This document shows positions 1 to 64,000 of a stretch of DNA of 64,000 nt, piece after piece. Each line of letters opens with the position of its first letter. Within the stretch, counting starts at the first letter, position 1. The translations under genes were made by a program, and so were the position numbers. The notes beneath the pieces were generated by a model, which made no database searches, was not told where the DNA came from, and saw only the letters and a list, made by a program, of their open reading frames with translations. The stretch comes from Nakazawaea peltata. Taxonomy: Eukaryota > Ascomycota > Pichiomycetes > Alaninales > Pachysolenaceae. The stretch is from positions 1,286,032-1,350,031 of the forward strand of contig BCGQ01000003.1 in NCBI GenBank assembly GCA_001599355.1, written 5' to 3'.

Positions 1-2980
1 GCTTGTAGTCGTATTCTGATGGGAACTCAACTTGGTATTCAAATAATCTTTGAAGTAAAATAAGGCATGAATTTTGTAATTTAAATTTCCGGTCATTGGT
101 CCGTTTTTGGTGGGACTCGAAGTCGAATTCAATGCCAAGATCAGCACATTGATCTGATGTGATTGAAAATTCACAATTTTTCGAAAGAATCGACCCTATG
201 ATTTCGAACAGTTCTGTTTTTGTCAGCTGATCACACCATTTTTCCAAGAACTTCAAGAGCGATGTTAACGAGTTCCTGGACATTTTATTAGATGAGATTA
301 ACGCTCCAGCTAGAAGACAGTATCCCTTCCAAAATTCTTGTTTCTCTAAAGAAGAACTGGAAGAATACACATTCTTTAATAGGTAGTCAAAATAAGACTC
401 ATTATTAGTGATGATATCAGAAGGTGTATCGGGTAATTGATATGTCTTAGCAAAAAGTCGAAACGACTCCTCTCTGAGTCTGTCAATCATGTCAAAATTC
501 AATCTTGTCAATTTACAATTAACGTAATTCTTTAGCAGTTGATCTTGCAATATATTTTGTAAATTATTGCTCACAAATCTTACTGTAGCCCCTCTGAGTT
601 TTGCTCCGACATCTCCTTGGCTGGTGATCGTATAATCATCGAATTGGTTGATGATCCGAATGAGGAAAGGTCTCTCAAGTCCATGTTTTGAATTATAAAC
701 AGAAAGACTATCTATTAATGTGGCTCGTACTTCATGGTCTTGCTTTGGTTCTTCAATAATATTCAACAATTGATTTAGCTGCAGAGAATTCAACAAGTTA
801 AAAGCACGGAAACTACGAGATACCCCAACATTATTACCCATTTTCACATAATAGATCAACTTATCGAAAAATTCTGGTGACATTTCAGGCAAATTCTCCA
901 CAATTGCTTCGAATTTTTCATGAATTGGATCAGAAGAGGTCATTTTGATTATACTGAAAATTAGATCCTGTGTACTGTCGAAGATCGAGAGATCTCCGTA
1001 TACTGACATAATAACGGAAATCAAGTGCAATATCTCCTCACCTTTACTCCAATTATCTCTATGAGTATTGAAAGTTTGGGAAATGACCAACTCTTTTACT
1101 GAATTTAATTGTTCTTGATCGATACGTTTCTTTTTGAGTAACTCCAGAAGCATATAAAGCAGGCCGGGCAGTCGTTTACGAGAATCCAGAAACAGCATTG
1201 CCTGCTCGATTGAAATATCAGAGTCGAGCAGTGGAATTAACCTCTCAAGACTCAATTTCCTAATTTGATAGTCATGGTGGAAACAGTTGTTTGACAAATG
1301 CTCCGAGATGAATGAGCTGAAATCGCTATTGAATTCATTTACCAAAATTTGCGATAATAAATAAGACTTCTTGATATCACCCAAGGCCGTGAAATCTAGA
1401 TACTCGATCAATTTTAATTTGAAATAGTTAGGGGATATTCCCCAGTTGGTATATTTATCGTAGATTGTATCCCCAAATCTACCTACTAATTCTTGCATGA
1501 CAGCACTAGCAGCTCTTCTGATCATCAAATCCTTATCAAACAAACAGGCTAGTAAAAGGTCCTGGAAGATGCTCTTCAAATATGTTTCCTCTATAGATCT
1601 GTATTTCTTTACAAGGCACCACAGGACATAACACGACAGGTCTCTAATGTTAGATCCTACAGTATGGGTCAATCGGTTCTGTTCGAGGAACAAAGTCTTG
1701 TGAAGAATCGATACTATGGACAGAACATAGCTAGGTAAGACCAATCTAGCATTCAAATACTCTGCTATAATGAGCAAGACCCCATGAAACTTATTAATAT
1801 TGATCAAGTCTGGATCAAAATGTAACTCTACGAGATTTTGAGAAGCCAAATCCAAATATGGGATCTCCAAATCGGAAAGAACAGTTTCAAGTAATTGCAG
1901 TTGAAAATCTTCGTCTTCCAACTTAAGAGAGATCTTAGCAAACTGTCTGGCGACACAGTATCTTATAGGAGTGTTATTATAGTCCAATTTGGAGATCAAA
2001 CAATTAATTATATCTTCTACAATATCAGCACGGTCAAGCAATACCAGAACTTCACCAATTTTCCCCAAATTCTTCAATGAGTACTTCAAGATATTAATAT
2101 TACCGGTTTGTTCGAGATGATACTTTGAAAATTCGTAATGCACATCGATAAACCCTTGGATCGTGAACACTTTGGATATTTTTACTAAATTATTCAAAAC
2201 TGTGAGATAGTTGAGGATTATGAATTCAGAGCTGTTCTCTCCTTGTTGGGCCGGGAGTTGCTTATGATAGAACTCTTCCAAAAACTCGGTACTATCAGGC
2301 CTAGAAAGAAATCTACTCAATAACACAGCTGCAACGTCCAGCTCTTTACTGTTAGTAGTGAAGAAAGAGAGCCCCAATTGATATATTCTACGAGGAATTA
2401 GAGGGTTTACGGCGCTCAATTCAAATGGGTTTAATACCAATATCGAGAGCCAAAGTAAGAGCATGAAATGTTGCTTCCAATTGCTGGTCACTTTATCACT
2501 GTTACTAGTTGATGATTCGAGTCTCTCTACAATAGGCTCTATCAAGTACACGTCACTAGGTAAACAGCTACTCAAACTCTTAAACCCTCGCACTTTAGTG
2601 AGTTGATAGAATATATCAGCGATCTCCAAGTTCTTAGACTCAAGTTCCAGCCTTTTATCACTGTCATCATTGATCGTGTACCCCTTACAAAGCTGGCTGA
2701 TGAAAACATTCAATTTTGAATCGAGCAATTGAGGAGCTGGCTGGAATTCTTGAATAGCATTTAATACTTTTTCTAGCACAGAATTACTGGTAGTACCTTC
2801 ATAATCGTCAGAATCACGAAAATCACCGCCCATTCTCACATCGTCATCGTCCGAGACCTCATCGGTCGCGATCAAAGAGTCTCTTTCTGCCTCAAATCGG
2901 ACAATATCTGTTATACCAGCACTGATCGCGCCAAGTAACTGGTCCTTGACCTTGATGATCTCGATTTCGTCCTTATCCAT
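1..2980 (-). CDS. CIN1: Tubulin-folding cofactor D (CIN1), 3' end outside the window
   Basis: The reading frame starts at the ATG complementary to 2978-2980 and stays open to the left edge, so about 993 codons are visible and the C-terminus is missing. It encodes an all-helical HEAT/ARM-type protein. The signature (T)VGSNIRDxSCYVxWCL, encoded around 1616-1660, matches the cofactor D family (VGSNVRDAACYVCWA). Cofactor D captures beta-tubulin and takes part in alpha/beta heterodimer assembly with cofactors C and E; in yeast its loss affects microtubule stability. The N-terminus is acidic with a DDDD run. The two x positions in the signature are CTG codons, and the first falls where the family has Ala. 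The promoter (2981-3305) carries two CArG palindromes. The family call is confident; the missing C-terminal part is unverified. Confidence 0.85.
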   Translation of the reverse strand, partial: MDKDEIEIIKVKDQLLGAISAGITDIVRFEAERDSLIATDEVSDDDDVRMGGDFRDSDDYEGTTSNSVLEKVLNAIQEFQPAPQLLDSKLNVFISQLCKGYTINDDSDKRLELESKNLEIADIFYQLTKVRGFKSLSSCLPSDVYLIEPIVERLESSTSNSDKVTSNWKQHFMLLLWLSILVLNPFELSAVNPLIPRRIYQLGLSFFTTNSKELDVAAVLLSRFLSRPDSTEFLEEFYHKQLPAQQGENSSEFIILNYLTVLNNLVKISKVFTIQGFIDVHYEFSKYHLEQTGNINILKYSLKNLGKIGEVLVLLDRADIVEDIINCLISKLDYNNTPIRYCVARQFAKISLKLEDEDFQLQLLETVLSDLEIPYLDLASQNLVELHFDPDLININKFHGVLLIIAEYLNARLVLPSYVLSIVSILHKTLFLEQNRLTHTVGSNIRDLSCYVLWCLVKKYRSIEETYLKSIFQDLLLACLFDKDLMIRRAASAVMQELVGRFGDTIYDKYTNWGISPNYFKLKLIEYLDFTALGDIKKSYLLSQILVNEFNSDFSSFISEHLSNNCFHHDYQIRKLSLERLIPLLDSDISIEQAMLFLDSRKRLPGLLYMLLELLKKKRIDQEQLNSVKELVISQTFNTHRDNWSKGEEILHLISVIMSVYGDLSIFDSTQDLIFSIIKMTSSDPIHEKFEAIVENLPEMSPEFFDKLIYYVKMGNNVGVSRSFRAFNLLNSLQLNQLLNIIEEPKQDHEVRATLIDSLSVYNSKHGLERPFLIRIINQFDDYTITSQGDVGAKLRGATVRFVSNNLQNILQDQLLKNYVNCKLTRLNFDMIDRLREESFRLFAKTYQLPDTPSDIITNNESYFDYLLKNVYSSSSSLEKQEFWKGYCLLAGALISSNKMSRNSLTSLLKFLEKWCDQLTKTELFEIIGSILSKNCEFSITSDQCADLGIEFDFESHQKRTNDRKFKLQNSCLILLQRLFEYQVEFPSEYDYK

Positions 2981-3305
2981 AGTACAAAACACGAGCGTCA
3001 CGTACCAATTGCCGATTTTTCACCACCCAAACTCAACAGTCATCACTTGAGATCCAAATCAAAATAAGGTTACGTGAGGTAGTGGAGTAGAGCACAATTT
3101 CCCAATTGGGATTTTAGTCGTGTGATAATGTCTAAAATACCTAATAAGGAAATCTATGCGATAACATATTAAATTGGGGGTTCTTCAAAGAGGGGTGGAT
3201 TCATCAAGGGTATAGAAAGACCCATGAAACAGGCCACCACGGCCCATAAGACTATACTATTCCTACAACATGTCATATCAATAAATATAATAAATATACA
3301 TTGCC
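2981..3305. promoter_or_regulatory. CIN1 upstream region with two CArG/Mcm1-like palindromes
   Basis: No gene is seen here. The stretch lies between the CIN1 start and the stop of the next minus-strand gene. It contains TTTCCCAATTGGGATTT (the CCCAATTGGG core is at 3101-3110) and TACCTAATAAGGAAAT (the CCTAATAAGG core is at 3140-3149). Both fit the MADS-box consensus CC(N/W)6GG bound by Mcm1-type factors. Binding is inferred only. Confidence 0.4.
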
Positions 3306-4241
3306 TTACAAAATATCCTTGAAACTGATGTTAGCAGAACCTCTTTGCAGAGGTTGTGGCTGACTAGCCAGCTTCTTCCATCCTATGAAGAATAAAATAC
3401 GGAAGGTCAGGGGTAAGATGATCTTATTGATGGATTGGTCAACTTCCCCGTGTAGAGTCTTGTAAACTGAGTCTGCAGCAATGATAGTGTCACGTGATAA
3501 TGCAATATTTTCTATTCCCGTGACACTGTTACTCTCCCCCATCATTTGGAGATCCTTCATAAGGGCGAGTAAGTCAGGGTAGCACACCACTATCTCCTCT
3601 ACATCAATGGTGACCAACTCAAAACCGCATTGTTTTAACAAATTGGACAAATCCTCTGAGCGAATAAAAGGAGAAACATGCGGGGAAACCCCTCCTTTCC
3701 TTTCCAACTCGGCAATTTGAAGAGAAGTCCTCAACTCAAATAAAGTGTCCGTGGTAAAGACGGATCCCATGAACATTCCGTCGGGTTTCAACAGTAAATT
3801 GATCTCCTTGAATACCCCACTCAAGTCATTAGTCCAATGCAAGGCGAGATTTGATACTACCCCATCGAAAGTGCCGTATTTTTCGACATCGAATCGGTAC
3901 GTCTCCTCATCTTCACAGACTTTGATCACCTCTAAATCTTCAGCCTCAGGGATCGAGTCTAGAAGAACTTTTGACCCTTCTAAGCACCACACAGTCTGTA
4001 ATTTTTCCTCTACGATCTTTTTTGTAGTCAAATCCGATGTCTTCTCTAGCATTCGAAGAAAATTGGATCCATGTGATCCGTAGTCCATCATCTGTGGGAA
4101 GTCTCTTTTAATGTAGGAGAGTCTCTCGATAGTTCTGCGAGCTACTTCATCACGTAAATATTCCACATTTTGGTTGAATCCCACACGTTGTTTCTGGGTG
4201 AGTTTCACCGATCTATCAAAAACTCTCAGAATTCTATTCAT
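3306..4241 (-). CDS. NDUFAF5: NDUFAF5-like complex I assembly factor, mitochondrial
   Basis: This 311-aa protein belongs to the class I methyltransferase-like NDUFAF5 family, which in animals hydroxylates an arginine of the NDUFS7 subunit during complex I assembly in the mitochondrial matrix. Family-specific blocks are clear: NVEYLRDEVARR near residue 25, SNLALHW at 130-136, LLLKPDGMFMGSVF, the RxSLQIAExERxGGxSPHxSPF block, LMKDLQMMGESN, and a C-terminal IGWK followed by RGSANISF. The SAM-binding loop, normally DLGCGRG, reads DYGSHGS at 53-59, so two of its glycines are displaced. CTG codons at 3408-3410 and 3348-3350 fall in P-x-TF and P-x-QRGSA, where the family has Ala. The gene implies that the species retains a proton-pumping complex I. 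Start and length fit the family. Confidence 0.88.
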   Translation of the reverse strand: MNRILRVFDRSVKLTQKQRVGFNQNVEYLRDEVARRTIERLSYIKRDFPQMMDYGSHGSNFLRMLEKTSDLTTKKIVEEKLQTVWCLEGSKVLLDSIPEAEDLEVIKVCEDEETYRFDVEKYGTFDGVVSNLALHWTNDLSGVFKEINLLLKPDGMFMGSVFTTDTLFELRTSLQIAELERKGGVSPHVSPFIRSEDLSNLLKQCGFELVTIDVEEIVVCYPDLLALMKDLQMMGESNSVTGIENIALSRDTIIAADSVYKTLHGEVDQSINKIILPLTFRILFFIGWKKLASQPQPLQRGSANISFKDIL

Positions 4242-11988: not shown

Positions 11989-13968
11989 ATGGACTCATCA
12001 CTTTACGAGGACTATCTAGAAGGAAGAGAAGGATTAGGGGGCCGAAAGACGGTGGAGAGGGGGATTAGCGGGGATATTTTGGCAATGGATAATGTACTGG
12101 AGGGCACTGGAGTCGATTTGAGTCCTCAGATGGGACTCTCCCCTCCAAAATTGACCCATAGAACATCGGTAGTCTCACTTGCTAATAATACGTTGGTTCT
12201 TCCGGAGTTGATGGAGGCGTCAAGGGCTCTGACCACGTCTGTATCACTTGAAGATGGGGTCAGTACGTTCAATATGGATATAGGAGGTGGAAATGATGTA
12301 GTTTCGCTATTTGGCGGTCGTAGCAGTGCTCCCACGTTGAATATCCACGACGGAGATCACTCTGTAGATAGTTCTGAAGAAGATTCAGCTAGTATAATCG
12401 AGCGTAGGATAAGTGAATTGATTAATGATGACCGTAGTATCATGAGAGAGTCTATGATGCTCCACTCTACTAGCTCACGGGGTAGCACCTATGCATCTAG
12501 TTCTGTGGGAGGGTTGATGGGGGAGTCGGATTACTTTTTAGAGGGGTTACCTGCTGTTACGGAGCCTCAAAGTGCCGATAATGTGGATGATTTGGAGGAA
12601 TTCTTGAAGTTTCCGAAACATTTCTTCATTCTCTCATCGGCAGGAAAGCCTATTTACTCTATGCATGGCTCCGATGAGATCATATCGGGGTATATGGGGG
12701 TGATCCAGACGATTATCAGCTATTTTAAAGAGACAAATGAGGATAATTTGAGGTCTTTTGAGACTTCTAATGGTACGAAGTTCTCATTTTACATTCAGTC
12801 ACCTATAATATTGTTACTGATATCTACAAATAGTATGGAAACTGACCTTCAGTTGCTCCAACAGCTTCAATTCTTATATAATTTCTTACTTATGACACTT
12901 TCCAAGCCACATATTGGCCGGGTGTTCGCTAAACGGGAGAATTACGACTTGAGAAAGTTACTCGGGAGGTCAGATATTGCCTGTTTGGACTCGATATGTG
13001 CAGAATTATGCAATAACGTGAACCCTGGTTTGGTAATTGGAGGGTTAGAACTGATAAAATTAAAATTACCCGTGAGAAATGCCTTGGGAAGCATCTTACT
13101 CTCTCATAGGACACCCAATTTGCTTTATGGGCTTGTTGTGGCTCCTAAAGGACGTCTTCTCACGGTTCTCCGGCCTCGTAGACATACTTTACACATCTCA
13201 GATCTTCAATTATTGTTCGAAATGATCTTTAACACTAAGACATTCCGTTCTACTGCCGATAATGCATACAGTGAAGAAGAGTTTTGGGTTCCTACGTGTC
13301 TCCCGAGATTCAATGTAAATGGTTTCCTATATAGTTTTATCAAATTTGTGGATTTGAGTTTGCATCTCGCTCTAGAAGAGCTCGAAGGGCTTTCGGAGGA
13401 GCAAATCGACAACAATAAGCTCACACTTATCCTCATTTCGGCAGACAAGTCGGCATTCTTCGAGATGCGAGAGCTGCTGAGTAAGATCATTGCCGATCTT
13501 TGCTCTCAAAAAGGCCATAGTAAGAGAGTATTTGACGAATTAGTAAGGTGTCTTTATAGTCCTAGATCGCGGATCCGGATGAATGTGGATGTGCCCACTC
13601 CTTTGGTCCGTCATTTCCTGTATAAATCTCGTACACACATCCAGTATGTGTTCCCAGAGTGGGAGAGTAGTAGTGAGACGTCCTATGGCAAGTTGATGTA
13701 CATTTACAAGAGGCTTCAGACGTTAGTTCTTCGTCATTATGACGGGGGGAATCTGAGATCGAATTTCATCTCGTATTTGAAGTTCGATGTAGGTGAGGGC
13801 AAGCAGGTCTTGGGATTTGTATTGATTACAAAGACGTATGAGTTGTATATGGTGACCAATGATGGTATTATCAATAAGGAAATATTGATGGAGAGTTGTA
13901 AGAAGATTGTGAGGTGGTGCCTGAAGAATCAGGAGAGGTTATTTGTTTGTGGAGGAGCTGTATTTTAA
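11989..13968 (+). CDS. MON1: Vacuolar fusion protein MON1
   Basis: The protein has 659 residues. About the first 200 are acidic and disordered. The conserved part begins at FPKHFFILSSAGKPIYSMHGSD near residue 205, the first longin strand typical of Mon1. It continues through SPIILLLISTNS, QLQFLYNFLLM, the LxLPVRNALGSIL block and a C-terminal third longin region. Mon1 pairs with Ccz1 as the guanine-nucleotide exchange factor that activates Ypt7 (Rab7) on late endosomes, autophagosomes and vacuoles. Length and domain order fit the family. The DDLEEF segment ahead of the first longin domain may be a regulatory phospho-region. The gene is convergent with the IZH-like gene. Confidence 0.88.
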   Translation: MDSSLYEDYLEGREGLGGRKTVERGISGDILAMDNVLEGTGVDLSPQMGLSPPKLTHRTSVVSLANNTLVLPELMEASRALTTSVSLEDGVSTFNMDIGGGNDVVSLFGGRSSAPTLNIHDGDHSVDSSEEDSASIIERRISELINDDRSIMRESMMLHSTSSRGSTYASSSVGGLMGESDYFLEGLPAVTEPQSADNVDDLEEFLKFPKHFFILSSAGKPIYSMHGSDEIISGYMGVIQTIISYFKETNEDNLRSFETSNGTKFSFYIQSPIILLLISTNSMETDLQLLQQLQFLYNFLLMTLSKPHIGRVFAKRENYDLRKLLGRSDIACLDSICAELCNNVNPGLVIGGLELIKLKLPVRNALGSILLSHRTPNLLYGLVVAPKGRLLTVLRPRRHTLHISDLQLLFEMIFNTKTFRSTADNAYSEEEFWVPTCLPRFNVNGFLYSFIKFVDLSLHLALEELEGLSEEQIDNNKLTLILISADKSAFFEMRELLSKIIADLCSQKGHSKRVFDELVRCLYSPRSRIRMNVDVPTPLVRHFLYKSRTHIQYVFPEWESSSETSYGKLMYIYKRLQTLVLRHYDGGNLRSNFISYLKFDVGEGKQVLGFVLITKTYELYMVTNDGIINKEILMESCKKIVRWCLKNQERLFVCGGAVF

Positions 13969-20785: not shown

Positions 20786-21340
20786 ACATATATCTCTCTA
20801 CATATATCTCTCTACATATATCTCTCTACATATATCTCTCTACATATATCTCTCTACATATATCTCTCTACATATATCTCNNNNNNNNNNNNNNNNNNNN
20901 NNNNNNNNNNNNNNNNNNNNNNNNNNNNNNNNNNNNNNNNNNNNNNNNNNNNNNNNNNNNNNNNNNNNNNNNNNNNNNNNNNNNNNNNNNNNNNNNNNNN
21001 NNNNNNNNNNNNNNNNNNNNNNNNNNNNNNNNNNNNNNNNNNNNNNNNNNNNNNNNNNNNNNNNNNNNNNNNNNNNNNNNNNNNNNNNNNNNNNNNNNNN
21101 NNNNNNNNNNNNNNNNNNNNNNNNNNNNNNNNNNNNNNNNNNNNNNNNNNNNNNNNNNNNNNNNNNNNNNNNNNNNNNNNNNNNNNNNNNNNNNNNNNNN
21201 NNNNNNNNNNNNNNNNNNNNNNNNNNNNNNNNNNNNNNNNNNNNNACATATATCTCTCTACATATATCTCTCTACATATATCTCTCTACATATATCTCTC
21301 TACATATATCTCTCTACATATATCTCTCTACATATATCTC
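20786..21340 (+). repeat. 14-bp minisatellite interrupted by an assembly gap
   Basis: Tandem ACATATATCTCTCT units occupy 20786-20880 (about 6.8 copies) and 21246-21340 (about 6.8 copies). Between them lie 365 undetermined bases at 20881-21245. Degenerate units (CTACATCCCTCTC) precede the array at about 20760. The true copy number is unknown because the gap falls inside the array. It lies between the upstream region of one regulator and the 3' end of its paralogue. Confidence 0.95.
20881..21245. other. Run of 365 N (assembly gap)
   Basis: Unresolved bases bounded on both sides by the same 14-bp repeat. The sequence shown gives no information on content. Any reading frame across it is meaningless. 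Confidence 1.
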
Positions 21341-24884: not shown

Positions 24885-27614
24885 TTATTCGATGATCAGT
24901 TTTCTCTTTTTGACCTTTTTCTTTGGTTTTTCTGGGTTTGATGGATCGATGGACTCGGTAGTAGTCTTCTTCTTCTTCTTTTTCTTTTTCTTCTCTTCAG
25001 TAGGAGGAATATGTGTCTCCAGGAGTTCTTTTCTTAATTTTTCAACCTCGTATTCACCGAAAGTGGAGTCTTCCAGGTTTGAATCGGCCTTTAAGTCGAA
25101 ACCGATCAATTGGGAGTCATCCATTTTGAATTTCAATTTGGTATGAGGGATCGAAGATTGGAGTGCAGGAGGAAGTGGGGAATGAGAACTTCTGGTATCC
25201 AGAGCCACGTCTTCCTCATCGATAATTGTCACCATCTGTTTTTGACGTAAATGTTTCTTCTTCTTTTTCTTTTTCAGGTCCGGAGCTGTCGAAGAAGACT
25301 CTGTTGGAGCTTTTGATGATGCTGCTTCACCATTAGAATCGGTAAATATATAGAACGGGTCATCCTTGAGCTCTTCAAGTCTTTCTTTACGACGTTTTTC
25401 GGCCTCTTCATCATCTATATCAATTAACAGATGTTTTTCTGAATCATCGGAGTCGACTTCGTTGGAAAATAAGTCATTATGAGTGTCTTCTTCACCGTAA
25501 GCCTCGAAATCTTCCACTTCTTCGTCAGAAAATCCATCCACCATCTCAGAAAGACTCAATAAATTGGAAAAGGCCGCCTCATTGATTGGTTCTTCCATAT
25601 TGATTCCTTCAGGAATGGCAAGACGTTGTTGAAGACCCACTGCGATAGGTTTAAGTTCATACAGAGTGAAGAGTTGGGGTAAAGCCTGGGTTAAGAATAA
25701 TGGAGGAGCCACATAACCTTGTAATTCCAGTTCCAGTTTAACTTTCAGTTGCTCTAAAGATTCTTTCAAGATTTTAAATAACTCAGAAAGCGTTATTGCT
25801 CGTTCTTGGGTCTCGAAATGGAACGAATATTGAAGTTTCTCAACCCATTTCAATACGTTTTCCAATAATTTGATGGAATCTTGGTAATAAGAAGGGGTCC
25901 ATAACGAGAAATCTCCACTATCACGATTCAAAAACTTGATTATCAGTTTAAAGAGAGCTGAAATAAACGTTGGAAAGAGTTCATGGGAATTTGGAACCGA
26001 TGAAAGATTGTTGAAAGTCGATTCTGAAGTCATGAATTTGATGATTTTAACCGATTCTTTGTCTTCTTCATCCTCTTCATCCTCATCTTCAAGTAAATCC
26101 TCCATATATTCAGAAATACACCATACACATTCACTCCACCAAAGTCCAGCTGGTAAAGTGTCATCAGTAACTACATCTATACAAGTCTCTACGATGCTAC
26201 TGCGTATAGAAGGTGCTCTGAGTCCAAGTTGCAGCAATTGACGGCTGATTTGAAGCATTGTAGGCAAATCTTGTTGCATAAGATGCAAAAGATCCCTTAA
26301 AGTCGCCAAATACCAATCAAAATTAGGCACCAAAGAGAAATTCTTCATAGAGCAAATCTGAAGAATCTTCTTAGCTAATTCAAGCTTATATGTAAATGGT
26401 AAAGGTGAAATATTCGAAGGATTTTCATCGGCTAATTGTAATAATAATTGTGAAACAATGTCAACGATATTTTCACCATCTACAAGTCCATCTACGAGCT
26501 CTAAAGTCTTTGTCCTGAGGGTCAAATCATCCCCATTCAACCATTTAAGCATAAGAGCTTGGTGCTTTTTCACGAGCAGAGGATGGATATGAATAATCTT
26601 GAGAAATGCCAAGATACACACATATTTCAAATTTGGATCTTGCGCAAATTGATATTGGACTAATTGATCCACCATTTTGGTCGCAATAGTCACATTATCT
26701 GGATCAAGCATATCTCCAGTTAAAATACAGTTTATACATTCATAAATCAACGAACTCAGTTTTGTAGAATCCATTAAATTCACTACTGCGGGAAGAAGTT
26801 TCCTCTTTAAACGTGGTTCCACAAGAGAAAGTGAGGAAAAAAGCTTCAAAAGTCTAATTATCATCCAATTGTTACTTGAAGTGGTCAATAATTCGAAGAA
26901 TCTTGGAGTCAATTCGACATAATTATTAGCATTTTTCTTCAGCAACTCACAAATCACATTTATGGTGGCACTAACCACAGAAATGTCTTCGGAATCATCC
27001 AATTTATCTACAAGACGATTATAATTTAATTTTAAAGACTCAGGGTACCGTAAGAACACTTTGTATGAAGCCAAAATGGCCTTCTTACGGATATAAGGCT
27101 TCGAATGTGAAAGCATTTTCATCAAATCATCAACCACATCTTGCAGTAATTCTCTAGTCACAATAGAAGACAAACAACTTATAGCCATTCCCACTTCTAC
27201 ATGGTTCAGAGAGGTGAGATCCTTCTTCAACAAGTTCGTCATCAACATCAACACATCATCATTATTCTCTCTTGAAAGTACTTGCATCAGAGCAAGGTAT
27301 CCTATACGTTTTTGTTGGAATTTAGGCGAGGACATCACTTCCAAAATTTGAAAATTCATGAAGGGAAGGTCAAAGCCGTACATTTCAAGGTATGTGAGCT
27401 TCAAAATCGCCATTGATTTCAATTCCATATCGTTTGCTTTAAGTTCAGATCGACATTCCTCGATCGATTTCGTGAAAAATGCCGCCAATTTCGCCTTGTC
27501 TCCATTGTTTGACCGGATCCCTTTGATAAGATCGGAGAGAGACCTTTCGAAAGAGATACCGAACGGACGTAATCTCGACCGGAATTGCTCACTGGTGACG
27601 TCGACGAGTGACAT
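24885..27614 (-). CDS. APL5: AP-3 complex delta-adaptin APL5
   Basis: The protein has 909 residues. The N-terminal 550 or so form the adaptin trunk: SLSDLIKGIRSN, a KSMAILKLTYLEMYGFD block, QQKRIGYLA-x-MQVLSR and SKPYIRKKAILASYKVFLRYPESL, all characteristic of AP-3 delta. The hinge is acidic (EDEDEEDEEDKE near 520; DDEEAEKRRKERLEE near 745) and the tail is Lys-rich with several runs of seven or more lysines. AP-3 sorts cargo such as alkaline phosphatase from the Golgi directly to the vacuole. The CTG at 27288-27290 sits in GYLA-x, where delta adaptins have Ala. It is divergent from DDC1. Confidence 0.9.
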   Translation of the reverse strand: MSLVDVTSEQFRSRLRPFGISFERSLSDLIKGIRSNNGDKAKLAAFFTKSIEECRSELKANDMELKSMAILKLTYLEMYGFDLPFMNFQILEVMSSPKFQQKRIGYLALMQVLSRENNDDVLMLMTNLLKKDLTSLNHVEVGMAISCLSSIVTRELLQDVVDDLMKMLSHSKPYIRKKAILASYKVFLRYPESLKLNYNRLVDKLDDSEDISVVSATINVICELLKKNANNYVELTPRFFELLTTSSNNWMIIRLLKLFSSLSLVEPRLKRKLLPAVVNLMDSTKLSSLIYECINCILTGDMLDPDNVTIATKMVDQLVQYQFAQDPNLKYVCILAFLKIIHIHPLLVKKHQALMLKWLNGDDLTLRTKTLELVDGLVDGENIVDIVSQLLLQLADENPSNISPLPFTYKLELAKKILQICSMKNFSLVPNFDWYLATLRDLLHLMQQDLPTMLQISRQLLQLGLRAPSIRSSIVETCIDVVTDDTLPAGLWWSECVWCISEYMEDLLEDEDEEDEEDKESVKIIKFMTSESTFNNLSSVPNSHELFPTFISALFKLIIKFLNRDSGDFSLWTPSYYQDSIKLLENVLKWVEKLQYSFHFETQERAITLSELFKILKESLEQLKVKLELELQGYVAPPLFLTQALPQLFTLYELKPIAVGLQQRLAIPEGINMEEPINEAAFSNLLSLSEMVDGFSDEEVEDFEAYGEEDTHNDLFSNEVDSDDSEKHLLIDIDDEEAEKRRKERLEELKDDPFYIFTDSNGEAASSKAPTESSSTAPDLKKKKKKKHLRQKQMVTIIDEEDVALDTRSSHSPLPPALQSSIPHTKLKFKMDDSQLIGFDLKADSNLEDSTFGEYEVEKLRKELLETHIPPTEEKKKKKKKKKTTTESIDPSNPEKPKKKVKKRKLIIE

Positions 27615-31554: not shown

Positions 31555-33087
31555 ATGACTCAAATTGAAAAAGAACTTGTAGAGGCCAATACCAATTCCT
31601 CGAGCGCCAGCTCTGTCAACAAGGCTTATGAGCCAGTTGTCGATGAACCTGTGTACAAATTAGAAGTCAACAGCCGCACTGTGGCCAAGTACTTCCGTAC
31701 CAGAGTTACCGACCTCATTCCTAGAAAACAAAAATTCAAGGACAATTTACACCAATTGAATATCTTCAAGCCATTGGGTGAAATTAACCGTAAGACATGG
31801 TTCTTCATTATGAGTGCCTTCTTCTCATTCACATGGGAACTGTTCGATTTCTTCACCGTCTCTTTGAATGTCAAAAAGATCCTGTTGGAATTTAACGTCT
31901 CCACCACCGATGTTACATATGGTATTATGTGTCTGTTATTGACTCGTACTGCAGGTGCCGTTATTTTCGGTATTGTAGGTGACAAGTATGGTAGAAAGCA
32001 GGCCTTCTTGTTCAACTTGGGTATGATGTGTGTCTTGGAAATTGGAACAGGTTTTGTCAAGACTTTCAAACAATTTTTGCTGGTCAGAGCTTTGTTCGGT
32101 TTGCTGCTTGGTGGTGTATTTGGTTCTGCTGCAGCTCAAACTTTTGACGATTGTCCTGCCCTGGCCAAAGACTTTATCGGTGGTTTCTTCCAACAAGGTT
32201 ATACCTTTGGATATTTATTGGCTGTTGTTTTCACCAGAGCCATTGCCGACACCACTGAGAAATCTTGGAGAGCTGTTTTCTGGTTCGCTGCCGGTGTCTC
32301 TTTCCTCTTATTGGTCATCAGAGCCATTTTGCCAGAGACTGAAGCCTTCCTTGCTAGAAAAGAAGAAAGAAGAAAAGCCGCTGAAGCTGGTGTTCCAATG
32401 AACTCCATCGGTAGAGATTTGTGGGAATCTTTCAGAAATTACTGGTACATGATCGTTTACATGGTCCTCATGATGGTAGGATTCAATTATCTTTCTCATG
32501 GTACTCAAGATTTGTTCCCAACCATGCTTACCAACCAACTGGAATTCAGTGCTGACCGTTCCACCGTCACTAACTGTTTGGCCAACATTGGAGCTATCTG
32601 TGGTGGTTTAACTCTTCCACATTTGGCCACATTGACCAACAGAAGATTCGTCATGATCTGCAGTTGTTTGTGTGCTGCTTGTCTTATTTATCCATGGGGT
32701 TTCATTCACGACAATTCCATCAATGCCAGTGTCTTCTTCTTGCAATTCTTCATCCAAGGTGCTTGGGGATTAGTTCCATCTCATTTGAACCACTTGGCTC
32801 CAGACAAAAAAACCCACGCCTTCTACGTTGGTTTATCTTATCAATTGGGTAATATGGCAAGTAGTGCTTGTTCCACTATCGAGACCACCATCGGTGAGAG
32901 ATTCCCAATCGTTTCCTCATCCGGTGCTACCGTCTTCGATTATGGTAGAGTCATGTCCATCCTTGTCGGTGCCGTCCTTGCATACTTAGTCTTAGTGCTT
33001 TTCTTAGGTCCTGAACAAAGACCTTCTCTGAACGCCACTAATGAAGAAGCTGAGATTTCATCTCAAATCGAAGACCAAAAGGTTTAA
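31555..33087 (+). CDS. JEN1: JEN-family mono/dicarboxylate:H+ symporter
   Basis: The protein has 510 residues and twelve membrane helices of the SHS/JEN family, with soluble ends of roughly 80 and 35 residues. The transport signature NYLSHGTQDLFPT begins at residue 311 and contains the N..S/T-H-x-S/T-Q-D-x3-T pattern unique to Jen carriers. The MFS motif A GDKYGRKQ follows helix 2 and QQGYTFGYLLA marks helix 5. Jen proteins import lactate, pyruvate, succinate or malate with protons at the plasma membrane; Jen1 versus Jen2 specificity cannot be settled here. CTG codons at 31840 (WE-x-FDFF), 32080 (FL-x-VRALFG) and 32104 (FGL-x-LGG) replace residues that are Ala in relatives. Confidence 0.9.
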   Translation: MTQIEKELVEANTNSSSASSVNKAYEPVVDEPVYKLEVNSRTVAKYFRTRVTDLIPRKQKFKDNLHQLNIFKPLGEINRKTWFFIMSAFFSFTWELFDFFTVSLNVKKILLEFNVSTTDVTYGIMCLLLTRTAGAVIFGIVGDKYGRKQAFLFNLGMMCVLEIGTGFVKTFKQFLLVRALFGLLLGGVFGSAAAQTFDDCPALAKDFIGGFFQQGYTFGYLLAVVFTRAIADTTEKSWRAVFWFAAGVSFLLLVIRAILPETEAFLARKEERRKAAEAGVPMNSIGRDLWESFRNYWYMIVYMVLMMVGFNYLSHGTQDLFPTMLTNQLEFSADRSTVTNCLANIGAICGGLTLPHLATLTNRRFVMICSCLCAACLIYPWGFIHDNSINASVFFLQFFIQGAWGLVPSHLNHLAPDKKTHAFYVGLSYQLGNMASSACSTIETTIGERFPIVSSSGATVFDYGRVMSILVGAVLAYLVLVLFLGPEQRPSLNATNEEAEISSQIEDQKV

Positions 33088-37125: not shown

Positions 37126-38856
37126 ATGTCCCTTTCAGCACAGCCAACTAAAGATCTCAGTATCCGTGTCACTGTCTCTAAGTATCGTGATCAAGCTCAT
37201 GGTGAGCTTGACCCAACTCATGCTCTGAGTGATAATGAATTATTGGCTGCCATTGGTTATAAAGCCGAGTTAAAAAGACAATTTTCCACACTTCAAGTTT
37301 TTGGTGTTGCCTTCAGTATTATGGGTTTGTTACCATCTCAAGCTTCTGTCTTTTCACAAGCTTTGACTGGTGGTCCAGCTGGTATGATTTGGGGTTGGTT
37401 CACCGCTTCCTTCTTTGTTCTTCTTATCGGGTTGAGTATGGCTGAATTGGCCAGTGCCATGCCAACTAGTGGTGGTTTATACTACTGGTCTTGGTACTAT
37501 GCTCCAGAAGGATGGAAGATCCCAATCTCTTATATTGTTGGTAATACCAACTCCGTTGCATTGGTCGCTGCTTTGTGTAGTGTTGACTATGGTTTTGCTA
37601 AGGAACTTTTGGCTGCCATTTACTTGGGTTATGATGGGGACTTTGAAGTCACCAATGCCAAGGCTTATGGTGTCTATGTTGCCTGTGTTGTTGCTCATAT
37701 TATCATCACCTGTGCTTCCTCTCATGTTTGTTCCAGATTGCAAACTATTTCCATCACTTGTAACTCTTTGCTTGTCGTTTTCTTCCTCATTGTCTTACCT
37801 ATTGGTACCAAAATCAACAGAGGAGGCTTCAATGATGGTCTGTATATGTTCGGAGACTATCAAAATCTTTCTGGATGGTCCAGTGATGGTTGGAATTTCA
37901 TGACCAATGGTTTAATGCCTAGTGTTTGGACTATCGGAGCCTTTGACAGTTGTGTCCACATGAGTGAAGAGCTGAAAAATGCTGTCAAAAGTGTACCTAT
38001 CGGTATCATCGGATCTATTTCTGCCTGTTTCAGTGTTGGTTTCTTCATCTTCATCCTGTGTGCTGCCTGTATGACCCAAGATTTAGACTCGATCATCTCC
38101 ACCCCATCTGGTCAACCAATGGCTCAATTGATTTACGACTCTTTAGGAAAGAAATGGGCCATTGCCTTCATGGTTTTGATCCTGTTCTGTCAATTCTTGA
38201 TGGGTCTGTCTATCTTGACTGCTATTTCCAGACAAATCTGGGCTTTCTCCAGAGATAACGGTTTACCAGGTTCCTCTTATATCAAGGTTGTCAACAAGAA
38301 GTTGTCCACACCTTTAAGAGCTGTCATCTTTGGTGGTGTATTGGCTATTGTCTTGGGTCTGTTGTGTTTGGTCGGTGAAAGTGCTGGTGCTACCCTGTTG
38401 TTCACTATGTATATCTGTGGTAACTACTTCCTGTGGGGGGTTCCAATTCTTCTTGCTAACACTACCGGTAAACATAAGGTTGTTAAAGGTCCTTTCAACT
38501 TAGGATTCATGTCTCCATTCGTTCATTGGACTGCTATAATCTTCATGTTGTATATCATCATTTCTGTCAACTTCCCAGCTGCTAGTACCGTCACCAAGGA
38601 CTCCATGAACTATACTTGTGTCATTACCCCAGGTTTCATGATCTTTGCTGCTATCTATTACGCTGTCTACGGTAAGAAATACTTCCATGGTCCAGCCAAG
38701 AATGTCGACGATTACGAAGTTTACAAGGATGGTGACGAAATCCCAGATGGCCAGGAACTTATTGCTATCAACAGCGAGACTGGAGAGGAAATTTACGATG
38801 GCATAGAACAACGTCAAGATCTGTCCGACTCTAGCAGTCAAAAAGAAAAGGTCTAG
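37126..38856 (+). CDS. UGA4: UGA4-like GABA/amine permease (APC superfamily, ACT family)
   Basis: The protein has 576 residues and twelve predicted helices. Family blocks are FSTLQVFGVAFSIMGL ahead of TM1, GGPAGMIWGW, MAELASAMPTSGGLYYW, GAFDSCVHMSEE and SRQIWAFSRDNGLPGS. These are typical of fungal GABA, choline and polyamine permeases (Uga4, Hnm1, Tpo5). GABA uptake is the first guess because of the GATA-rich promoter, but the substrate is unproven. The C-terminus is acidic and Ser-rich, suited to ubiquitin-dependent turnover. CTG codons at 37972 (HMSEE-x-KNA) and 38431 (NYF-x-WG) fall on Ala positions. Codon bias suggests strong expression. Confidence 0.8.
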   Translation: MSLSAQPTKDLSIRVTVSKYRDQAHGELDPTHALSDNELLAAIGYKAELKRQFSTLQVFGVAFSIMGLLPSQASVFSQALTGGPAGMIWGWFTASFFVLLIGLSMAELASAMPTSGGLYYWSWYYAPEGWKIPISYIVGNTNSVALVAALCSVDYGFAKELLAAIYLGYDGDFEVTNAKAYGVYVACVVAHIIITCASSHVCSRLQTISITCNSLLVVFFLIVLPIGTKINRGGFNDGLYMFGDYQNLSGWSSDGWNFMTNGLMPSVWTIGAFDSCVHMSEELKNAVKSVPIGIIGSISACFSVGFFIFILCAACMTQDLDSIISTPSGQPMAQLIYDSLGKKWAIAFMVLILFCQFLMGLSILTAISRQIWAFSRDNGLPGSSYIKVVNKKLSTPLRAVIFGGVLAIVLGLLCLVGESAGATLLFTMYICGNYFLWGVPILLANTTGKHKVVKGPFNLGFMSPFVHWTAIIFMLYIIISVNFPAASTVTKDSMNYTCVITPGFMIFAAIYYAVYGKKYFHGPAKNVDDYEVYKDGDEIPDGQELIAINSETGEEIYDGIEQRQDLSDSSSQKEKV

Positions 38857-54217: not shown

Positions 54218-54227
54218 ATTATATAAT

Positions 54228-54955: not shown

Positions 54956-55051
54956 TAGATTTGCCCACATTTTTCAACCGACTCCCCCCCTATAAGAGGG
55001 GAGCATCTGCTGGATTGGAGGACCCAATTGAGAATTGACAAAGCTAACGAC

Positions 55052-56542
55052 ATGTCTTTATTTACCGAAATCACTTTGCCTAACGGCGTCAAGTATCAAC
55101 AACCTTTGGGTATGTTCATTAACAATGAGTACGTCTTGCCAGCCAAGAAGACTTTGATCCCAGTCATCAACCCAGCTACTGAGGAGGAGATCACCCAAGT
55201 TTACGGTGCCACTGCCGAGGATATCGATGTTGCTGTTGCCGCTGCTAGATCCCTGTTCGAGAACCCAGAATGGTCCGAGTTGCCTGCTGTTGAACGTGGT
55301 GCTTTCCTCTACAAAATTGCCGAGTTGGTTTGGAGAGATCGTGAACTCATTGCCGCCATCGATGCCATGGACAACGGTAAGACTTATGCTGGTGCTCTTG
55401 AAGGTGATATGGATGAGAGTTACAATGTTTTCAAATACTACGCCGGATGGGCTGATAAGATCACCGGTAAAACCATTGAGACTTCTCCTCTGAAATTGGC
55501 TTACACTTTACAAGAGCCATTGGGTGTTTGTGCTCAGATCATCCCATGGAATTATCCATTCATGATGCTTGCTTGGAAAATTGCTCCGGCTCTTCTGTGT
55601 GGTAACACTGTTGTTTTGAAGGCTGCTGAGCAAACTCCATTGAGTTGTTTGTACTTCGGTAACTTGATCAAAGAAGCTGGTCTTCCTGCCGGTGTCGTCA
55701 ACTTAATCACCGGTTACGGTAAGGACGCTGGTCTGCCATTGCTGGGTCATATGGGTGTTGACAAGGTTGCCTTCACCGGTTCTACTCTGACTGGTAAGCT
55801 GATCATGAAGGCTGCTGCCGATTCTAACTTGAAAAACGTCACTTTGGAATGTGGTGGTAAGAGTCCTTTGGTAGTCTTTGACGATGCCGACATCGATTTG
55901 GCTGTTGAATGGTCTCATGTTGGTATTTTCGAGAACCAAGGTGAAGTTTGTACCTCTACTTCTCGTATCTTGGTACAAGAAGGTATTTATGAGAAGTATA
56001 TCGAGAAATTTGTCAACTATACCAAGGAGAGAGCCGTTATTGGAGATCCATTTGGTAAAGATACCATCCAAGGTGCTCAAGTTTCCAAGCAACAATTCGA
56101 AAAGGTCTTGGGTTACATCGAGGAAGGTAAGAAAGGTGGTGCTAAGGTCGCTTATGGAGGTCTGAAGGCTGCCGACAAGGGTTACTTCATTCAACCAACT
56201 ATCTTCACCGACTGTACTCAAGATATGAAGATTATCCAAGAGGAGATCTTCGGTCCAGTCGTTGCTGTCTCCACTTTCAAGACAGTTGAAGAGGGTGTCA
56301 AGAAGCTGAATGATACTTCTTATGGTTTAGCTGCTGCTTTGTTCACCAAGGACATCACTAAAGCTCATAAGGTCGCTCTGAAGTTACAAGCTGGTATGGT
56401 CTGGATCAACTCTTCCCAAGATTCTCATTTCGGTATTCCTTTCGGTGGTTACAAGAGTTCTGGTATTGGAAGAGAGTTGGGATCTTATGCTCTTGATGCT
56501 TATACTCAAACTAAGGCTATCCATGTCAATTTGTCTTGTTAA
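55052..56542 (+). CDS. NAD(P)+ aldehyde dehydrogenase, cytosolic type
   Basis: The first ATG in frame is at 55052 and gives 496 residues, with no mitochondrial leader. Class 1/2 ALDH motifs are complete: IIPWNYPFMMLAWKIAPAL with the active-site Asn, KAAEQTP, FTGST, the general base Glu in TLECGGKSP, the catalytic Cys in FENQGEVCTSTSR, EEIFGPV and SFGGYKSSGIGRELG-like FGGYKSSGIGRELG. GEVC replaces the commoner GQCC, but the nucleophile is kept. It oxidises aldehydes to acids; acetaldehyde or an amine-derived aldehyde is possible. Ten CTG codons lie in conserved regions and read well as Ala, notably PAL-x-CGN (55595), AG-x-PL-x-GH (55733, 55742) and KK-x-NDT (56306). Strong codon bias suggests high expression. 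Confidence 0.93.
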   Translation: MSLFTEITLPNGVKYQQPLGMFINNEYVLPAKKTLIPVINPATEEEITQVYGATAEDIDVAVAAARSLFENPEWSELPAVERGAFLYKIAELVWRDRELIAAIDAMDNGKTYAGALEGDMDESYNVFKYYAGWADKITGKTIETSPLKLAYTLQEPLGVCAQIIPWNYPFMMLAWKIAPALLCGNTVVLKAAEQTPLSCLYFGNLIKEAGLPAGVVNLITGYGKDAGLPLLGHMGVDKVAFTGSTLTGKLIMKAAADSNLKNVTLECGGKSPLVVFDDADIDLAVEWSHVGIFENQGEVCTSTSRILVQEGIYEKYIEKFVNYTKERAVIGDPFGKDTIQGAQVSKQQFEKVLGYIEEGKKGGAKVAYGGLKAADKGYFIQPTIFTDCTQDMKIIQEEIFGPVVAVSTFKTVEEGVKKLNDTSYGLAAALFTKDITKAHKVALKLQAGMVWINSSQDSHFGIPFGGYKSSGIGRELGSYALDAYTQTKAIHVNLSC

Positions 56543-56804: not shown

Positions 56805-58556
56805 CTAACACCAGAAGCTGTAGACTCTGTAGTAGAATGGCTTGGAAGCAATGTAAGCCTTCTCTTCGGCAATTTCTTGCTTCAACAAGTCCAAATCAAC
56901 TTCTCTTCTACCAGAATCCAAATCAAGATCCTTCAGCTTAATGTAAAGCTTCCAGTTTCTAGTCCAAAGCTTGTGACCAATGTAGAAGACCAAGACGACT
57001 GGAGCAGCCAAGTAAGATTGGAAGAAAGCAGAAGCGTCTGGAGATCCACCAAGTGGGAATAAGGCAACCCAGAATTGGGCAATCAAAACCAAAATGTTCA
57101 AGATAACACCGTAGTAAGAACCGTAGACACCACATTGAGAGGTGAAAGCCAATTCATTGGTGTCTCTACCTTGAACCTTCAAAGCATATCTGAATCTGAT
57201 GTGAACCAAACAGATAGCAGTCCAGGTGAACAAAGAGGAAAGACCAGAAATAGCCAACAACCAGTTGAACATATCACCCTCGAAACTAGTCTCAGCAGTG
57301 AAAGCCAACAAACCGAACAGACAGGTGATAAGAATACCAACCAAAGGTCTACCACTTCTGTCAATGTAACCAACAAACTTTGGAGCTTGACCACAGTTGG
57401 ACAAAGCAACAAGAGTTCTGGAACAAGCAAAGACAGCAGAGTTACCGACAGACAAAACGGCAACCATGATGACAACGTTGATAACACTTGGCAAACCAGA
57501 AATACCAGCTCTGGTGATGGCAAGGACGAATGGAGAGGCACTGGCATCGACAGAAGAAGATCCAATCAACTTCTCATCGGTGTATGGAACCAACAAACCA
57601 ATCAAGGTCAAAGAGATGATGTAGAACAAGGTAATTCTCCAGAAAACTTGCTTGGTAGCCTTTGGTAAAGACTTTCTTGGGTTAGCAGTTTCGGCAGCAG
57701 CCAAACCACACAACTCGGTACCCAGGAAACTGAAAGCAGCAGTGACGAAAACGGTACAAACACCCTTGAAACCAGCAGCAAAGGCTCCTGGGTCGTGCCA
57801 GTATCTACCACCAAGGTAACCACCCTTTGGACCACCACCACAAACTAAGATAATACCCAAGATAATGAAACCGATAATGGCCAAAACCTTGATCAGAGAG
57901 AAGATGAACTCCAGCTCACCGTAACCACGAACACCAAACAAGTTGATAGAACAGATAAGAACGTAGAAGATGGCAACCCACAGGTCATGGTTGATAGTAG
58001 AATCCCAGTAGTTAATAGTAATAGAACAGGCAACCAATTCCAATGGCAAGACAATCAACCATTGTAACAGATAGTTCCAAGCCATGGCGAAACCAAAAGA
58101 TGGGTCAATGAATCTAGTGTTATAAGAGACAAAGGAACCGGAAATTGGGAAAGTAACAGCCAATTCTCCCAAACATTGACAAACAGAGTACAACATGGTA
58201 CCAATTAAAGACCAAGCAATCAAAAGAGCCAGTGGACCACCAGTTCTTAACAGAGAACCGGAACCAACGAACAAACCAGTACCGATAGAACCACCAATGG
58301 CAATCATTTGCAAATGTCTGTTCTTCAAGTTTCTGGCCAATGGAGCACGCAGAGTAGCAATAGCAGCTCTCTCTTCCAAAGAAAGGTTAGGGTCCAACTC
58401 TTCAACTTCAAAAGGCTTGAAAGTATCGAGGAAGCCCTTGAAACCACCTCTGGTTGGCTTCTCATTTTGAGTCAGGTCAACTTCACCGGTCTCGTAGACC
58501 AGGTAGTCTTCAGAGACTTGCTTCTTGTAGTCACCACTAGAATTTACAGAAGACAT
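56805..58556 (-). CDS. GAP1: General amino-acid permease (GAP1-like, APC/YAT family)
   Basis: The protein has 583 residues with twelve helices. YAT signatures are complete: LKNRHLQMIAIGGSIGTGLFVGSG in TM1, WNY-x-LQWLIVLPLELV, FGVRGYGE-x-EFIFS, SF-x-GTELCGLAAAE, NPRKSLPKATKQVFWRI and the C-terminal FYYRVYSFWC, whose Cys resembles the palmitoylated Gap1 end. It imports many amino acids with protons and is normally controlled by nitrogen supply through GATA factors and ubiquitin. Seven CTG codons (58251, 58230, 58068, 57981, 57912, 57723, 57318) fall on positions that are Ala in relatives. A TATATATAA box lies at about 58620, with GATAAG at 58771. Confidence 0.93.
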   Translation of the reverse strand: MSSVNSSGDYKKQVSEDYLVYETGEVDLTQNEKPTRGGFKGFLDTFKPFEVEELDPNLSLEERAAIATLRAPLARNLKNRHLQMIAIGGSIGTGLFVGSGSLLRTGGPLALLIAWSLIGTMLYSVCQCLGELAVTFPISGSFVSYNTRFIDPSFGFAMAWNYLLQWLIVLPLELVACSITINYWDSTINHDLWVAIFYVLICSINLFGVRGYGELEFIFSLIKVLAIIGFIILGIILVCGGGPKGGYLGGRYWHDPGAFAAGFKGVCTVFVTAAFSFLGTELCGLAAAETANPRKSLPKATKQVFWRITLFYIISLTLIGLLVPYTDEKLIGSSSVDASASPFVLAITRAGISGLPSVINVVIMVAVLSVGNSAVFACSRTLVALSNCGQAPKFVGYIDRSGRPLVGILITCLFGLLAFTAETSFEGDMFNWLLAISGLSSLFTWTAICLVHIRFRYALKVQGRDTNELAFTSQCGVYGSYYGVILNILVLIAQFWVALFPLGGSPDASAFFQSYLAAPVVLVFYIGHKLWTRNWKLYIKLKDLDLDSGRREVDLDLLKQEIAEEKAYIASKPFYYRVYSFWC

Positions 58557-61500: not shown

Positions 61501-62237
61501 CTAAAACACGCTTTTTGTATAGATTTTTCTTATAGTACTCCGAAATAGGATAAAAAAAACCTATCATGTAAACAATCTCTGCTCACCGCCCAAAAAATAA
61601 TTTTTCTATTCAAAAATTGCGTCCATAGAGTGCTCGCAAATGCATAAATTGTTTTCTGTCTTTGTGTTTCTTATCAAGCTTTCCAAACATGTCAAAAAAA
61701 AATGAGACAAGATAATAGATCTGCGTTTATCCAAACAGGTTAAAAAAAAATCCACACAAGATAATAGATCTGCGTTCATCCAAACAGGTTAAAAAAAATT
61801 CACACAAGATAATAGATCTGCGTTCATCCAAGAAGGGATAAATTTGGCACAGCACCCAATAATATATAAAGGTACCCCTTTCTAAGCCCCGTTCCAAAAT
61901 CTGTGTCAATCAGATGATACATTTGACATACAAGCAGAAACATTGCATGAGATAAAAGCCTTCGCTTATTATATGAATTTAAACTAAACCACTGTTTGAA
62001 GCTAACACGGGATGGGGATGACATAACCATACACTGTGTAGGCGTTAGGTATATGAAACCATGGGTGCGAGATTGAAACTTTGGCTCTCTCACTCCTGAG
62101 CTGTATGGCATGGGGCTCATAAATTTATGACCTTGTGTATTGATATAAATATAGACTGGTGCCCGTGTCATTTTCTTATGCGAGCTCTAACTTATCAACA
62201 GCTAATTGAATTCGCAGAGATTTTGAAGATAACAATC
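58557..62237. other. 3.7-kb gene-poor AT-rich region, apparently decayed
   Basis: The first 400 bp or so are the permease promoter: a TATATATAA box at 58620, GATAAGATAA at 58771-58780 and several A-runs. From about 59060 to 62230 I find no intact gene. Frames are short, broken by stops, and lack starts. A stop-free stretch of 67 codons without ATG runs 59739-59942. A 48/49-bp tandem repeat lies at 61694-61833. Position next to a flocculin gene suggests subtelomeric decay, but no parent gene could be identified. Confidence 0.5.
61694..61833 (+). repeat. 48/49-bp tandem repeat, three copies
   Basis: Each copy is an A-run of 8-9 followed by a variable 4-5 bases and CACAAGATAATAGATCTGCG (the first copy has GACAAG) and TTCATCCAAACAGG. 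GATAATAGAT starts at 61711, 61760 and 61808, so the periods are 49 and 48 bp. It lies about 400 bp upstream of the adhesin ATG and could be an upstream activating or silencing array, or simply a young duplication. Confidence 0.9.
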
Positions 62238-64000
62238 ATGTTTGGATTTCATGCATGCCTCAGAGGAATATTGATATTCCTCTTATTGCATGTTAATGTT
62301 TCCATGGCAGTCGAAAACCGAAATAACACGTTCGTAGTAAATCACTATGCTTGTGATATTGATGCTAAGCCACAGAATGCTGGATTCAGGGTAACCGCTT
62401 ACAATTACCCTCAAAGGGCCACGAAGGGTGTCAACAATCCCACATATATGGCTTATGGCTACCAAAAATTGCCTGTTTATGGTGGGCGTCAGGGAGTCAC
62501 AGATCCAACTTTTAATAACCAGGCATTGAAAGACAGGGAAAGTGAAGATTCATATACTAAAAAGGTCTATGGTATCACTGTCACCGAGCACCATTTTCTT
62601 GCCGAGTTGATGGGCTACTTTCATGCTACTGAAACTGGTTACTACCAGTTCAGATTGGACAAAATTGATGATGCAGTCATTATCCTCTTTGGTGAATATG
62701 CCTTCGACTGTTGCACAATGAATATTGATCAATCTCACAAAAAGAACTTCGATTATGTCTTCTACAACAGTAATGCAGGCGACTACGTCGATAGCAAGGG
62801 TGACTCATCAACTGACACCTGGTTGGCATCTGTTTACTTGGTGAAAGGTTATTACTATCCAATGAGAATTGTTTACCTGAATATTGGAAAGGGATCGTCT
62901 TTACTCTTTACAATGAAAAATCCGAAGGGTAAAACTATCAATTGGTCAAAATCTGTCACCAGCTTTACTTATATGAAAAAGAAAGACAAGATCTGCAATG
63001 ACGTTGCCGTGCCGCTTCGTAAGACCACTGTCACTCGGCCTTGGAGCGGTGTGCATAGGACAACCACCACACACAGTACGACCTATACCCATGGAACAAA
63101 AATTGGTGAGATAGTGAGTGTCATCGTTAAGACGCCAACTCATAAGCCACACACTGTCACAATCACTAAGCCTTGGACTGGAACTCGTACTACCCGTACT
63201 ACCAAGACTGCCCGTAATAAGGATAAGACTGTCATCGTTAAGACGCCAACTCATAAGCCACATACTGTAACAACCACTAAGCCTTGGACTGGAACTCGTA
63301 CTACCCGTACCACCAAGACCGCACATAATAAAGATGTGACTGTCATAGTTAAGACGCCAACTCATAAGCCAATTACCACTACCACTACAGAGCCGTGGAC
63401 TGGAACTGTTACATCCAGTACTACCACCACTGGCTCGAATGGAGATGTCACTGTTATTGTTGATACCCCAGCCTCAGCTCCGTTCACACTTACTAGAACT
63501 ACAGCTTGGACAGGAAAGGTTAGATCTACCAATACCACTACTGATGAGCTTGGTGATGTGACTGTTATTGTTGAAACTCCAAAGAAGAAGAAACATACTA
63601 CAACTACCACCGTTCCGTGGACAGGAAAGGTCAGATCTACCACCACGACCACCGGAAAAAAAGGTGGTGTCACCGTTATTGTTGAAACTCCAACTCATGA
63701 TCCATCAACTATAACTACAACTGAACCATGGACTGGTACATACACTTCGTACACCACCACTACCGCTTCTAATGGTGATGTGACTGTTATTGTTGATACT
63801 CCCGCTTCTACTCCGTTCACTCTTACTAGAACTACACCTTGGACTGGAACCTTCACATCTACCACTACTACTACTGATGAGCTTGGTGATGTCACAGTTA
63901 TTGTCGAGACTCCTACTGCTTCCGAGCCTGAGTCTTCTGAGGGTCCTTCCACTGTTACTACTACTAGTGGATGGACTGGTACCGAGACCTCAAGTACCAC
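62238..64000 (+). CDS. FLO-type adhesin with PA14/GLEYA-like domain and flocculin repeats, 3' end outside the window
   Basis: The ATG is at 62238 and the frame is open to the right edge (587 full codons). Residues 1-24 are a signal peptide (LIFLLLHVNVSMA). Residues 35-250 resemble the lectin domain of Flo and Epa adhesins: CDIDAKPQNAGF, GYFHATETGYYQFRL, the Ca2+-binding Asp-Asp pair at 144-145 in KIDDAVIILFG, and FDCC at 156-159. From residue 263 there are flocculin repeats of 37 residues centred on PWTGT...DVTVIVxTP. Seven exact-length units run 63138-63914. Such proteins are GPI-anchored in the wall and mediate cell-cell or surface binding by sugar recognition. The anchor end is not visible. 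Confidence 0.9.
   Translation, partial: MFGFHACLRGILIFLLLHVNVSMAVENRNNTFVVNHYACDIDAKPQNAGFRVTAYNYPQRATKGVNNPTYMAYGYQKLPVYGGRQGVTDPTFNNQALKDRESEDSYTKKVYGITVTEHHFLAELMGYFHATETGYYQFRLDKIDDAVIILFGEYAFDCCTMNIDQSHKKNFDYVFYNSNAGDYVDSKGDSSTDTWLASVYLVKGYYYPMRIVYLNIGKGSSLLFTMKNPKGKTINWSKSVTSFTYMKKKDKICNDVAVPLRKTTVTRPWSGVHRTTTTHSTTYTHGTKIGEIVSVIVKTPTHKPHTVTITKPWTGTRTTRTTKTARNKDKTVIVKTPTHKPHTVTTTKPWTGTRTTRTTKTAHNKDVTVIVKTPTHKPITTTTTEPWTGTVTSSTTTTGSNGDVTVIVDTPASAPFTLTRTTAWTGKVRSTNTTTDELGDVTVIVETPKKKKHTTTTTVPWTGKVRSTTTTTGKKGGVTVIVETPTHDPSTITTTEPWTGTYTSYTTTTASNGDVTVIVDTPASTPFTLTRTTPWTGTFTSTTTTTDELGDVTVIVETPTASEPESSEGPSTVTTTSGWTGTETSST
63138..63914 (+). repeat. 111-bp coding repeats of the adhesin, seven units
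   Basis: Units start at 63138, 63249, 63360, 63471, 63582, 63693 and 63804, each 111 bp (37 codons) and ending in VIV-K/D/E-TP. Units 1 and 2 are nearly identical and rich in Lys/Arg. Units 3/4 and 6/7 form a duplicated pair (THxP... then AS-x-PFTLTRTT), showing higher-order duplication. A divergent copy precedes (63018-63137) and another follows into the window end. Confidence 0.92.

Follow-up and report, generated by a model that had tools for sequence, protein, structure and literature searches.

A budding yeast genome in which CUG is most likely read as alanine, a rare change of the genetic code

The reading of CUG as alanine in budding yeasts reportedly goes back to two original reports published in 2016. 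Krassowski et al. 2018 (PMC5951914) assigned Pachysolen, Nakazawaea and Peterozyma to a CUG-Ala clade on the basis of BLAST comparisons and mass spectrometry, and described its tRNA(CAG) as derived from tRNA-Ala. The same source, in its account of the clades that have changed the meaning of CUG, presents the codon as relatively rare and situated mostly at poorly conserved sites. The order name Alaninales appears in a 2024 codon-usage paper (PMC11540330).

We analysed a stretch of 64,000 nucleotides (G000:C3:1286032-1350031, hereafter the window) from an assembly of 11.63 Mb in 11 contigs. Its source is most likely a budding yeast that reads CUG as alanine and not as leucine, which is a rare genetic-code change. 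The full reading, namely a CUG-Ala code in the genome of a yeast of the CUG-Ala clade, with CUG decoded by an alanine-type nuclear tRNA(CAG), is given a probability of about 0.97. A preliminary description of the window had already pointed to this code (NCBI table 26), a proposal now supported by alignment column statistics, by a tRNA with a CAG anticodon and a G3:U70 pair, and, for two of three proteins, by a best named match to Pachysolen tannophilus. The finding is an ordinary one because the clade is known as CUG-Ala: the alanine meaning of CUG is already known and explained there, and the present genome is one more example of a documented reassignment.

Alignment columns at CTG codons

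All 20 positions cited in the preliminary description as alanine-like CTG sites are in-frame CTG codons, and 14 of them were compared with homologues, one in APL5 and 13 in the following three genes:

56805..58556, minus strand: GAP1-like amino-acid permease (Pfam AA_permease); 12 CTG codons, 8 with alanine as modal residue; 102 homologues
55052..56542, plus strand: aldehyde dehydrogenase, ALDH (Pfam Aldedh); 10 CTG codons, 9 with alanine as modal residue; 79 homologues, mostly filamentous fungi by name
37126..38856, plus strand: UGA4-like GABA permease (Pfam AA_permease_2); 10 CTG codons, 5 with alanine and 1 with leucine as modal residue; 94 homologues

Family alignment with CTG masked, the check that the preliminary description had proposed, was carried out for these three window genes and favours alanine over serine and leucine. 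CTG was masked as X in the translations, which were aligned with database homologues drawn from the best 120 matches of each search; three proteins of outlying length and five from Pachysolen or the closest relatives were left out, and a 90% identity filter yielded 102 (GAP1), 79 (ALDH) and 94 (UGA4) reference sequences. The homologue searches used table 26 translations, from which a slight bias towards alanine is possible. Alanine was the modal residue at 22 of the 32 masked columns (GAP1 8/12, ALDH 9/10, UGA4 5/10), which confirms as an observation that CTG behaves as alanine and not as leucine in the window. Random sets of 32 columns from the same alignments gave a mean of 3.24 columns with modal alanine and a maximum of 12 (100,000 draws). 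At a conservation of 80% or higher there were 11 CTG columns, each of them an alanine column, and the summed log10 ratio over the 32 sites was +18.0 for alanine. Applied to the 50 other codons that occur, this scoring agreed with the standard code for 48; the exceptions, TCG and AGC, had a single site each.

Serine, which CUG encodes in the CUG-Ser yeasts (table 12), ranked second to alanine in this scoring and was modal at 2 of the 32 sites. Its summed log10 ratio was nevertheless -2.2 against the strongly positive value for alanine, and it held none of the 11 columns conserved at 80% or more; we regard a serine reading as extremely improbable. A leucine reading under the standard code, with CTG confined to tolerant sites, is just as improbable. 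It can draw on UGA4 38359 and on two sites in MON1 (see below), all of which face leucine, but its sum over the 32 sites was -15.0, while CTT, CTC, TTA and TTG all scored as leucine by the same method.

Alanine was not modal at 10 of the 32 sites. Among the 13 cited positions in GAP1, ALDH and UGA4 the original assignment to alanine columns holds for 12 and fails for GAP1 57318, where the 102 homologues carry mainly other residues (I 29, L 25, V 21, T 12, A 7). Alanine is only weakly modal at GAP1 58251 (48 of 102) and at ALDH 55733 (A 33, K 30 among 79 homologues). At UGA4 38359-38361 leucine is found in 74 of 94 homologues, and P. tannophilus also has leucine. A UGA4 relative from the read archive has leucine at three alanine-rich CTG columns, a pattern that CTG codons at these positions would produce when translated with the standard code.

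Five further genes of the window contain CTG codons:

24885..27614, minus strand: APL5 (AP-3 delta); 18 CTG codons; compared by eye with 7p3x_A, with the query translated by table 26
11989..13968, plus strand: MON1; 9 CTG codons, 7 of which align to 7qla_A (by eye, CTG as leucine in the query)
31555..33087, plus strand: JEN-like MFS transporter (Pfam); 8 CTG codons, three of them cited (31840, 32080, 32104); PDB relatives too distant to settle columns
3306..4241, minus strand: NDUFAF5-like methyltransferase (Pfam); 5 CTG codons, two of them cited (3408, 3348); PDB relatives too distant to settle columns
2..3019, minus strand: CIN1-like tubulin chaperone D (Pfam), open at the window edge; one cited CTG (1637)

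The cited APL5 site at 27288 corresponds to alanine, as claimed, in each of five AP-3 delta sequences displayed (by eye, table 26 query). Over the first two thirds of the alignment with 7p3x_A, four of nine aligned CTG sites face alanine and none faces leucine, three further CTG codons lie opposite gaps, and six in the poorly aligned tail were left uncounted. The seven aligned MON1 sites face alanine once, leucine twice, arginine twice, and cysteine and methionine once each; taken alone MON1 would not support alanine, and it was counted as evidence against it. The few CTG codons at leucine positions of homologues (UGA4 38359-38361 and MON1) may be substitutions or leftovers from the old code.

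Two other features of the window were noted. An open reading frame at 62100-63998 has GLEYA and PA14 domains and Thr-rich repeats, is adhesin-like, and runs to the contig end, and an assembly gap of 365 Ns (20881-21245) separates two large genes that by eye resemble zinc-cluster regulators.

CTG usage in the window and in chaperonin genes

The statement in the preliminary description that CTG is used freely agrees with the codon counts: in the 25 ATG-started open reading frames of at least 150 amino acids, 262 of 13,651 codons are CTG, which would amount to 26% of alanine codons if CTG is alanine. With CTG making up 1.9% of the codons in these window frames, table 26 is the code to use in translating this genome's proteins.

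Chaperonin (CCT) genes provided a comparison beyond the window. Eight genes on six other contigs were used, some with reading frames that begin inside the gene; another chaperonin-type gene, the ninth, and a partial match were left out. Together the eight contain 82 CTG codons among 367 alanine codons by table 26, with a range from 6% to 60% by gene, the upper value being that of CCT5. Aligned paralogue residues at the CTG sites comprised 131 alanines out of 490, with 58 serines and 24 leucines, and those at GCN sites 542 alanines out of 1,729. Of the CTG columns that are conserved, 11 were alanine and 2 glycine. With respect to serine this paralogue test is weak, the serine codons themselves (TCN, AGY) having yielded no conserved serine column.

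The leucine reading fares no better in CCT5 than in the window. Against 4v81_E, the best PDB match and presumably a yeast structure, 19 of 30 CTG codons face alanine and none of the 30 faces leucine, and against 5uyx_A, which we take to be a human structure, alanine is faced by 21 of 29 aligned CTG codons and leucine by none (both by eye); the CCT5 query had CTG translated as leucine, a bias against alanine. Genes that are conserved and use CTG freely, CCT5 among them, could make the genome suitable for studying how a reassigned codon comes back into wider use.

A tRNA with anticodon CAG and its background

The preliminary description had named a tRNA with anticodon CAG and a G3:U70 pair as the gene to look for, and such a gene is present on contig C4:

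G000:C4:81426-81498 (L103:77-149): tRNA(CAG), folded by ARAGORN with anticodon CAG and labelled Leu by the standard code

It was obtained with a T-loop-anchored pattern, which had 46 matches compared with 26 for a reversed control, and from which one match was picked by eye and fetched. The G3:U70 pair is an alanine identity element of tRNA, and the gene combines it with A73 and the short variable loop of class I. In a comparison with 18 class I tRNA types that lack introns, G3:U70 was confined to Ala(AGC) and Ala(UGC), and these two also match the acceptor best (11/15). A U6:U67 mismatch is common to the tRNA(CAG) and this genome's tRNA-Ala. The T arm matches Ala(AGC) and Glu(UUC) equally (14/17), and in a full-length comparison Val(UAC), at 29.0, ranks slightly above Ala(AGC), at 26.5; the gene lies below the Rfam gathering score.

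The D arm resembles those of this genome's tRNAs for Gln, Glu and Val, and the acceptor stem and T arm are alanine-like. The tRNA(CAG) may be a mosaic, in which an alanine identity was built on, or exchanged with, a non-alanine tRNA having a D arm of Gln/Glu/Val type, as opposed to an anticodon mutation of a tRNA-Ala gene, the origin that PMC5951914 gives for the clade; we consider the mosaic unlikely, if conceivable. Six ordinary tRNA-Ala genes were found, four with anticodon AGC and two with UGC, all on contig C9 at 84-299 kb. A tRNA-Ala A-box pattern with CAG and a DNA search with tRNA-Ala both returned ordinary tRNA-Ala genes only.

Searches for other tRNAs bear on the alternatives. An Rfam tRNA search of the genome showed no CAG anticodon among the 63 scored of 608 candidates. 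Three class II (Leu/Ser-type) CAG patterns gave no tRNA(CAG), two being without a match and the two matches of the third overlapping ordinary tRNA-Ser genes, within a tRNA survey that is incomplete: a listing of 411 matches reached only into contig C1, and one of the 46 T-loop-pattern matches was fetched. Within that scope, this result, together with the short variable loop and G3:U70 of the gene that was found, further counts against serine. Of the 13 sequences matched by a tRNA-Leu pattern, one reads as Leu(AAG), five as Leu(CAA) and two as Leu(UAA), and five have two mismatches. One AAG and one CAA gene were confirmed by ARAGORN and both UAA genes by the genome tRNA search. Leu(UAG) was not seen in two tRNA-Leu pattern searches, in which one of the five two-mismatch matches was inspected; this one, a TAG-like match on contig C2, is no tRNA by ARAGORN.

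Ambiguous decoding, in which CUG would be mainly alanine and partly leucine through an undetected tRNA or mischarging, would accommodate the few CTG codons at leucine positions and an incomplete tRNA survey. Pattern searches gave no Leu-type tRNA(CAG) and no Leu(UAG), with one of five two-mismatch matches inspected, and the leucine-facing sites are few and explicable as ordinary substitutions; we hold such a mixture to be very unlikely, if a little less so than a pure serine or leucine code.

Under the preferred alanine reading, the genome would be that of a CUG-Ala clade budding yeast, a membership that we infer beyond the best protein matches themselves. CUG would be read by the nuclear tRNA(CAG) with G3:U70 and A73, which is presumably charged with alanine and used in translation. 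The ancestral tRNA-Leu(CAG) has probably been lost, and a tRNA-Leu(AAG), for which one gene was detected, probably decodes CUU, CUC and CUA as leucine.

Comparison with known clades

Among the best 120 matches listed, the best named match is Pachysolen tannophilus for GAP1 (75%) and UGA4 (71%), and read-archive proteins are closer still (86% and 79%, respectively). The best 120 matches of ALDH are mostly from filamentous fungi, with Ilyonectria at 72% and Kuraishia at 70%, and Pachysolen is absent among those listed; this pattern of matches to the gene at 55052-56542 might reflect transfer or differential loss.

The genome resembles the CUG-Ala clade (Pachysolen, Nakazawaea and Peterozyma; Alaninales; table 26) in having CUG at alanine positions and an alanine-type tRNA(CAG), and in that two of three proteins have P. 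tannophilus as best named match. It is distinct from the database strain of P. tannophilus, at 75% and 71% identity in GAP1 and UGA4. In contrast to the picture of code-changing clades given in PMC5951914, CTG is not confined here to poorly aligned regions, as it accounts for 26% of alanine codons in the window frames and 60% in CCT5. With the CUG-Ser1 and CUG-Ser2 clades the genome shares the reassignment of CUG by a novel tRNA(CAG); unlike those clades, in which that tRNA is a tRNA-Ser according to PMC5951914, the gene found here is a class I tRNA with G3:U70.
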